Shown piece after piece: positions 19,622 to 21,034 of a stretch of 64,000 bases of DNA. Below the pieces are notes generated by a model. The model worked only from the letters and a program-made list of their open reading frames with translations. It made no database searches and was not told where the DNA came from. Positions within the stretch are counted from its first letter, which is position 1, and every line of letters starts with the position of its first letter. Location of the stretch: NCBI RefSeq assembly GCF_944388875.1, contig NZ_CALXKQ010000008.1:1-64000 (forward strand). Reading direction: 5' to 3'. This stretch comes from an uncultured Brachyspira sp. GTDB taxonomy: Bacteria > Spirochaetota > Brachyspiria > Brachyspirales > Brachyspiraceae. Both the position numbers and the translations under genes were made by a program.

Positions 19622-20701
19622 TTATTTTTCAATTTCTTTATTGCAGTAGTAGCAGAAATCACCATAGCTTCTTCTAGCAACTTTATTTTTTGTTTCTTCA
19701 AAATGAGTAACACATTTTTTATTGGTACAAACTACATTTTTATTTTCTATTAGTTCATAATCAATATCTTTCTTTTTAGCCTTTGATTCTATAATTCCAG
19801 TAGCAAGCGATATCATAGCCATTCTTGTAGGAACACCATTTCTAGCTTGTATAAAATATTTAGCATGTTTTGTATCATCCAAATCTATGCTTATTTCATC
19901 AACTCTAGGAAGAGGATGCATTATTATCATATTATCTTTACATTTTCCAAGTATAGTTTCTCTTGATATATTAAAAGCATGTTTTACTTTTTCATATTCA
20001 TTAGGATCATCGAATCTTTCTCTTTGTATTCTAGTCATATATAGGCAGTCTATATCTTTTAATATTTCTTCGTATTTATTAAGTTTTTTATATTTTGTTC
20101 CTGCTTGATCTAGTTCCTTTAATATATAATCAGGTATTTGTATAATATCAGGTGATATGAAATAAAACTCTCCATTAAACATCATTAATGCTTTTGATAA
20201 TGAATGAACCGTTCTTCCATATTTAGTATCTCCTACGAATGCTACTTTTTTATTTTCAAGACTTCCAAGCTCATCTCTTAAAGTATATAAATCAAGTAAA
20301 GTTTGGCTAGGGTGTTCATTAGCTCCATCTCCTCCATTGATAATAGGGCAGTCAGTAACTTCTTCAGCAAATTTAGCAGCACCGTCAATATTATGACGCA
20401 TAACTATAACATCAGAATAAGCAGAAACCATTATTATAGTATCTCTTAATGATTCTCCTTTTTTTATAGAGCTTATATCAGGGTTATCAAAGCCTAATAC
20501 CTGACATCCCATTTTGTATGCTGCAGAAGTAAATGATAATCTTGTTCTTGTGGAAGGTTCAAAGAATATGCTAGTCATTATTTTTCCTTCCATCATTTTT
20601 CTTCTCTTTTCACTATCAGTGTTATCTAGTTTTTTAGCTACATCCAATACCTCAATAATTTCATCTTTTGATAACTCTTTGATAGATATAAAGTTTTTCA
20701 T
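19622..20701 (-). CDS. pyrB: Aspartate carbamoyltransferase with PyrI-type zinc ribbon
   Basis: A 359-residue protein. Residues 1 to about 318 are the catalytic chain: carbamoyl-phosphate motif FFEPSTRTRLSF, the HPSQTLLDLYT aspartate-side motif, and HPLPRVDEI. The last 35 residues carry C-x4-C then C-x2-C (CTNKKC and CYYC), matching the zinc domain of PyrI, which in E. coli joins regulatory to catalytic chains. The nucleotide-binding allosteric domain of PyrI is absent, and the linker is short (about ten residues). So this is a catalytic chain with a built-in zinc ribbon. The first step of pyrimidine synthesis is its role. It is preceded by a leader-peptide attenuator at 20757-20885. Confidence 0.95.
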   Translation of the reverse strand: MKNFISIKELSKDEIIEVLDVAKKLDNTDSEKRRKMMEGKIMTSIFFEPSTRTRLSFTSAAYKMGCQVLGFDNPDISSIKKGESLRDTIIMVSAYSDVIVMRHNIDGAAKFAEEVTDCPIINGGDGANEHPSQTLLDLYTLRDELGSLENKKVAFVGDTKYGRTVHSLSKALMMFNGEFYFISPDIIQIPDYILKELDQAGTKYKKLNKYEEILKDIDCLYMTRIQRERFDDPNEYEKVKHAFNISRETILGKCKDNMIIMHPLPRVDEISIDLDDTKHAKYFIQARNGVPTRMAMISLATGIIESKAKKKDIDYELIENKNVVCTNKKCVTHFEETKNKVARRSYGDFCYYCNKEIEK

Positions 20702-20756: not shown

Positions 20757-20801
20757 AAAAAAAAGGAATAAAATCACTAAATAGTAACTTTATTCCTTTT
20801 T
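20757..20801 (-). promoter_or_regulatory. Transcription attenuator before pyrB
   Basis: On the minus strand AAAAAGGAATAAA pairs with TTTATTCCTTTTT (13 bp), extended by a second short stem, and is followed by a run of eight T, 55 bases before the pyrB start. The stop codon of the upstream leader peptide falls inside the 5' arm of this stem, the arrangement needed for translation-coupled attenuation as in E. coli pyrBI. Confidence 0.75.
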
Positions 20802-20885
20802 AGAAATTCCAAAATTCGTTAATTTAAAAATCAAATAGGGTAATAAATAAAAAATTATTTTATTTTCCAAAAATATATTTTTCAT
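20790..20885 (-). CDS. pyrB leader peptide (pyrL-like), 31 residues
   Basis: An ATG at 20885 with TAGGTGA five bases upstream opens a 31-codon frame (MKNIFLENKIIFYLLPYL at its start, ending FGISKKE) that stops at TAA 20790, inside the terminator stem. The mRNA has U-rich tracts in it (ATTTTTTATTTATT). In E. coli, UTP shortage makes RNA polymerase pause in such a tract, the trailing ribosome catches up, and the terminator cannot form. The gene order and overlap here match that scheme; the peptide sequence itself is not expected to be conserved. Confidence 0.6.
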   Translation of the reverse strand: MKNIFLENKIIFYLLPYLIFKLTNFGISKKE

Positions 20886-21034
20886 ATTTTCACCTACTAT
20901 TTATAAATTGAAGGGATTATATCATAAATATAATAAAAGTCAAGAATAAAATTTCTAATTTATATTTTTTAATTATTGAAATAAAATCTTTTACAGTTAT
21001 AATTGCTTTGTAATAGTTTAGTATAAGGCAATAT

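Follow-up and report, generated by a model that had tools for sequence, protein, structure and literature searches.

The pyrB gene of this uncultured Brachyspira sp. is preceded by a short reading frame that runs into a terminator, and the locus raises the question of whether pyrB expression in this spirochaete is set by a translated leader and, if so, which signal is read. Attenuation of pyrBI is the textbook example of how coupling between polymerase and ribosome can serve to sense nucleotides, and it is known mainly from enterobacteria. We know of no description of attenuation of this kind in the spirochaete phylum, and none of the papers searched deals with both Brachyspira and pyrB.

Organization of the pyrB upstream region

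Within the window, by which we mean the whole stretch of 64,000 nucleotides analysed here, pyrB and pyrC lie on the minus strand and dxs is divergent from them. The features of the locus are as follows.

20916..20943, minus strand: promoter, TTGACT, 16-nt spacer and TGATATAAT (extended -10); from the sequence
20905..20909, minus strand: predicted transcription start AATTT, 6 nt past the -10; from sequence and conservation
20891..20895, minus strand: AGGTG, Shine-Dalgarno sequence of the leader, 5 nt before its ATG; from the sequence
20790..20885, minus strand: leader peptide frame MKNIFLENKIIFYLLPYLIFKLTNFGISKKE, ATG, 31 codons plus stop; from sequence and conservation
20849..20854, minus strand: T6 tract within the leader, a candidate region for UTP-sensitive pausing; same offset in leaders L003, L006, L019 and L025
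20757..20801, minus strand: intrinsic terminator (attenuator), stem 20801-20783 / 20778-20760, loop ATTT, then T; from folding
19622..20701, minus strand: pyrB, aspartate carbamoyltransferase, 359 aa, with PyrI-like zinc tail; Pfam PF02729 and PF00185
18347..19561, minus strand: pyrC, dihydroorotase, downstream in the pyrB operon; Pfam amidohydrolase, pyrC by context

The initial annotation had described a 31-codon frame with its own ribosome site that ends inside the 5' arm of a strong terminator, 55 bases ahead of pyrB. This description agrees with the sequence: the minus-strand coordinates are correct, AGGTG is present, the leader stop codon (20792-20790) falls within the 5' arm (20801-20783), and 55 nt separate the T run of the terminator from the start of pyrB (20701). 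The -35 TTGA and the -10 are conserved in an alignment of 16 species and also in a list of 24 genomes anchored on the -10, and AGG or GGA is retained at the Shine-Dalgarno position of the leader across the genus.

The terminator hairpin (20801-20760) comprises 19 uninterrupted pairs with a folding energy of -19.4 kcal/mol, compared with a mean of -4.6 for shuffled sequences (z -7.0). Across 15 species 95% of the cells of the stem alignment are paired and five pairs have changed on both sides. Compensatory cells, changed on both sides, number 20 as against 7.2 in shuffles, and the covariation score of the stem exceeds that of all 500 shuffles (0/500) and of all slid registers.

Conservation of the leader frame

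Comparisons across the genus were based on 26 Brachyspira genomes, one per species, 24 of which have pyrB with a readable upstream region; the other two gave distant carbamoyltransferase matches only. When sought across these Brachyspira genomes, leader and terminator were both found, in 24/24 species. The order of parts (promoter, leader frame, terminator, pyrB) is the same in all 24 genomes with readable pyrB, and each has an ATG behind an AGG/GGA-type ribosome site and no stop before the terminator. The position of the leader stop is more variable, being past the hairpin in 18/24, in the loop or 3' arm in 5/24 and in the 5' arm in the window genome alone (1/24). Leaders of the closest relatives have 35 codons and end in the loop, and most others have 47-64 codons and run right through the terminator. 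The window leader carries one extra T (ATTTTGG vs ATTTGG in the closest relatives), which shifts the frame and shortens it from 35 to 31 codons. The 31-codon leader is real in the window, but its length is peculiar to this genome, and the extra T may be a homopolymer sequencing error. A ribosome terminating at the window leader stop should still cover what remains of the 5' arm.

These frames are open more often than neutral evolution would leave them. Neutral leader evolution was simulated 5000 times along the pyrB tree, the branch lengths of which had been fitted to the leader. Two runs left all 24 frames open and the mean was 10.1 of 24; with the two most distant species dropped, all frames were open in 12/5000 runs. 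Codons 2-16, alignable in 18 species, have a pN/pS of 0.28 in frame vs 0.80 and 1.08 out of frame. The neutral median for these codons is 0.52, and values as low as that observed arose in 21/1000 runs. The reading frame of the C-terminal half varies between lineages, yet it always reaches the stem: where 4 nt have been lost from the leader, one additional base just ahead of the stem restores the frame, and other lineages enter the stem in another frame, which is likewise open. Judged from these alignments, selection has kept a frame extending as far as the hairpin, together with a constrained N-terminal half, and the pN/pS of codons 2-16 is lower than a pure ribosome-as-roadblock model would need.

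This low ratio suggests constraint on the peptide, as would be expected if the leader only insulated or boosted pyrB, either as a small membrane peptide or as a reinitiation device, with constitutive partial read-through and no sensing of pyrimidines. Translational coupling is also possible in several species, in which the stop codon of the leader overlaps or directly adjoins the start of pyrB. The change of reading frame in the C-terminal half between lineages argues against such a function, and we consider it unlikely.

Structure of the leader RNA

Folding of individual species gave no shared helix between the 5' arm and the upstream leader (0-18 partners), and RNAalifold found no consensus structure in the leader upstream of the stem. 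The absence of a shared antiterminator helix is expected if the ribosome itself is the antiterminator, and it speaks against amino-acid attenuation of the trp, his or phe kind, whereby scarcity of Phe, Leu or Ile would stall the ribosome and an alternative hairpin would block the terminator. Although Phe, Ile, Leu and Tyr are frequent in the leader peptide, whose codons 2-16 are somewhat constrained, U-rich RNA encodes these residues per se and the residue runs are not kept across lineages. As the pyrB-pyrC operon yields pyrimidines and not Phe, Leu or Ile, we regard this form of attenuation as highly improbable.

E. coli has a pause hairpin before the U-rich stretch, whereas no conserved counterpart was found in the pyrB leaders of the Brachyspira species folded; a roadblock mechanism does not strictly need one. 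Separately, we observed a possible helix, AATAGG/CCTATT (20862-20910 region), that would cover the leader ribosome site; it occurs in several to many congeners and is broken in others.

Start site and U content

UTP-dependent reiterative initiation is known in E. coli from pyrBI, carAB P1, codBA and upp. At E. coli pyrBI an AATTT-type start permits UTP-dependent stuttering, for which spacing and the initiating base matter, shorter spacing giving less stuttering (PMC6245113), and reiterative initiation is widespread in Streptococcus agalactiae (PMC4448216). In 23 of the 24 Brachyspira genomes AATTT stands exactly 6 nt past the -10, the six preceding bases and those that follow being variable, and the neutral probability of its being kept in all 23 is 0.0006-0.0016. 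AATTT was found 5-8 nt past the -10 at only 4/133 promoter-like sites in the genome sample, and TATAAT-N6-AATTT is as frequent genome-wide as in the control (109 vs 108), so that AATTT is not a general start preference. By analogy with E. coli, stuttering at the predicted pyrB start is a plausible second UTP-sensitive step, and plausible only, because AATTT is kept but the spacing is one base short of that in E. coli.

The window leader is 48% U and all 24 leaders are 44-53% T. The T6 tract stands 31 nt from the ATG, as it does in leaders L003, L006, L019 and L025. In the window genome 18% of 84-nt intergenic upstream stretches are equally T-rich (>= 47.6%), and U tracts alone consequently prove little. 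It is mainly the nature of the controlled genes and the analogy with E. coli that point to the identity of the signal. U content as a proof of UTP sensing was rejected as weak in a genome this rich in A+T, and unexceptional U-richness is also what a leader that only insulates or boosts would have.

Proposed mechanism

We think it probable that pyrB is controlled by a translation-coupled attenuator of the pyrBI kind. Its core, ribosome-controlled attenuation, is well supported by the comparison of leaders, which bears out the initial annotation in its claim of a leader-peptide attenuator ahead of pyrB, with a frame overlapping the terminator. UTP is the likely signal, given the analogy with E. 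coli. Sequence and comparison show the signals of promoter and terminator, a frame that is open into the stem, the conservation of all of these and the recurrence of the layout at carAB and pyrKDFE. The AATTT start shared with E. coli pyrBI, this recurrence and the restriction of the 31-codon length to one genome go beyond the initial annotation. We infer translation of the leader in the cell, antagonism between ribosome and hairpin, the UTP signal and stuttering at the start site.

Under this model, polymerase would start at 20909 and make a short U-rich leader translated from the ATG at 20885. With UTP plentiful, polymerase would run ahead of the ribosome, the hairpin (20801-20760) would form and transcription would stop before pyrB. 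With UTP scarce, polymerase would be slowed in the U-rich leader and the lead ribosome would reach, or terminate at, the 5' arm; by masking this arm it would allow transcription to continue into pyrB-pyrC. A first and independent UTP check probably operates at the start itself: at high UTP, AAUUU would allow polymerase to stutter with U.

Other pyrimidine operons and other genera

How specific this layout is was gauged in 1.264 Mb of the window genome (41%), with 713 predicted genes having at least 60 nt of upstream room. A same-strand terminator lies upstream of 74 of the 713, and only 3/74 have a Shine-Dalgarno-like ATG frame leading into the stem, these counts being estimates owing to crude gene calls. 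The three are pyrB, the first gene of pyrKDFE and one further gene, which lies behind an ordinary 80-codon frame (80 aa). In a first sample of 464 kb the layout occurred at the two pyrimidine operons only.

Among congeners, a short ATG frame runs into a hairpin ahead of carA in 22/22 cases, mostly with weak ribosome sites. For the 17 of these 22 frames that were simulated, all were open in 21/5000 neutral runs. The carA leaders lack U-richness (0.31-0.41 in 18/19). A conserved mini-hairpin, CTGC..GCAG, stands ahead of the terminator in carA leaders L092-L094 and L119-L136 (GTGC..GCAC in L131) and could be a candidate pause hairpin. The pyrK leaders are less regular: among six species, two have a frame that extends into the stem, one has a frame ending shortly before it, and the layout is missing from the rest. 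The short frames at pyrKDFE (L101, L098, L097) are nearly leaderless, their ATG being 0-3 nt from the predicted start. A generic insulating or boosting device would not be expected to associate specifically with three pyrimidine operons.

Two genomes of a sister genus have a pyrR-pyrB-pyrC operon, preceded by ATG frames of 53 and 50 codons that run into a terminator. The leader ATG of these (L049 and L052, upstream of pyrR) is close to the predicted start (CAAATGGAA), and the L052 leader has two terminators inside the frame. No such leader was found at pyrB in a third genus of the family, nor in two genomes from a different family of the same order.

In the window genome a strong terminator-like hairpin was also seen 50-20 nt before the start of rpsB (ribosomal protein S2; G000:C3:188390-189202, minus strand), possibly another leader control.

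PyrR as a possible alternative regulator

A Bacillus-like scheme, in which PyrR with UMP binds a leader hairpin and promotes the terminator, deserves consideration as a PyrR-family gene scores above the curated cut-off in 22/26 Brachyspira genomes, the window genome included, and in the sister genus the pyrB operon begins with pyrR. The Brachyspira gene, however, stands alone between flagellar genes, and PyrR control offers no explanation for a frame kept open into the stem. The initial annotation had set its attenuator against a PyrR-type binding site; the PyrR RNA element was sought and not found. Neither an Rfam scan of the window nor a permissive scan of the leader returned a PyrR element or anything else relevant, and a covariance model run on the 26 genomes gave only sub-threshold, chance-level matches, the best of which in the window genome lies near arginine deiminase and not at a pyr gene. 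By pattern, the PyrR motif was about as frequent as a reversed control, and in the 400 nt ahead of each of the 24 pyrB genes the Bacillus consensus ARTCCNGNGAGGYT was matched with 3-5 mismatches at best. There may be a divergent PyrR site at pyrB, and the presence of the gene in the genus leaves room for PyrR as an additional player, but as the principal control of pyrB we rate it as quite improbable. In Brachyspira PyrR may act as a uracil phosphoribosyltransferase.

Comparison with known systems and implications

To our knowledge, E. coli does not attenuate carAB or the pyrKDFE genes by a leader-frame layout, whereas in Brachyspira the layout of pyrB is met at carAB and pyrKDFE as well. At pyrB itself the arrangement resembles pyrL-pyrBI of E. 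coli and Salmonella, which likewise has a TATAAT promoter, an AATTT start, a ribosome site and a frame over the terminator ahead of pyrB. In E. coli at high UTP, polymerase proceeds through pyrL and terminates, whereas at low UTP it pauses and the ribosome prevents the hairpin (PMC10135430, PMC5021804). E. coli pyrL is a 44-codon frame over the terminator with the start AATTTG, and the leader stop in the loop, 3' arm or beyond in the 23 other Brachyspira species is placed as in pyrL, unlike that of the window genome. No similarity of peptide sequence to pyrL was noted. The operon is pyrBC without a separate pyrI, in contrast to pyrBI, and the terminator stem is A+T-rich relative to that of E. 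coli. Reiterative initiation of the pyrBI type has AATTT in common with the Brachyspira start, which is predicted and lies 6 nt past the -10 rather than 7, a spacing shorter by one base. Bacillus PyrR attenuators (RF00515) share with Brachyspira an intrinsic terminator before pyr genes and a PyrR-family gene in the genus, but Brachyspira has a translated leader and the RNA element was not found. On the sequence evidence, the Brachyspira attenuator would work like that of pyrBI and apparently evolved separately; descent from enterobacteria is not implied.

We advance tentatively, with somewhat more doubt than confidence, the broader proposal that pyrBC, carAB and pyrKDFE form a regulon without a repressor in this spirochaete family, run by ribosome-coupled attenuators, with UTP stuttering at AAUUU as a further layer at pyrB; both layers would have arisen independently of those in enterobacteria. 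On this proposal, as the sister-genus leader precedes pyrR itself, such control would have existed alongside PyrR and could have taken its place in Brachyspira. A layout kept in 24 spirochaete species, recurring at three pyrimidine operons and shared by a sister genus, would mark such attenuation as a general and repeatedly evolved solution, and would imply tight transcription–translation coupling in spirochaetes. The approximately 50 leaders are a natural set for asking whether the mechanism needs such features as U tracts, a pause hairpin or a particular stop position.

Enzymes and a possible source of carbamoyl phosphate

The C-terminus of the window pyrB (19622-19770, minus strand) has a CX4C...CX2C tail like the zinc domain of E. 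coli PyrI, with 37% identity over 38 residues, and PyrI_C (Pfam) scores above cut-off in one congener. The tail lacks the nucleotide-binding allosteric domain of PyrI, and the genus yielded no complete pyrI. The gene for the small subunit of carbamoyl phosphate synthetase, carA, is present in 22/26 genomes and absent from the window genome (G000) and from G001, G002 and G020. As the window genome lacks carA and has an arginine deiminase gene (L084) and a second carbamoyltransferase, its carbamoyl phosphate may come from arginine.
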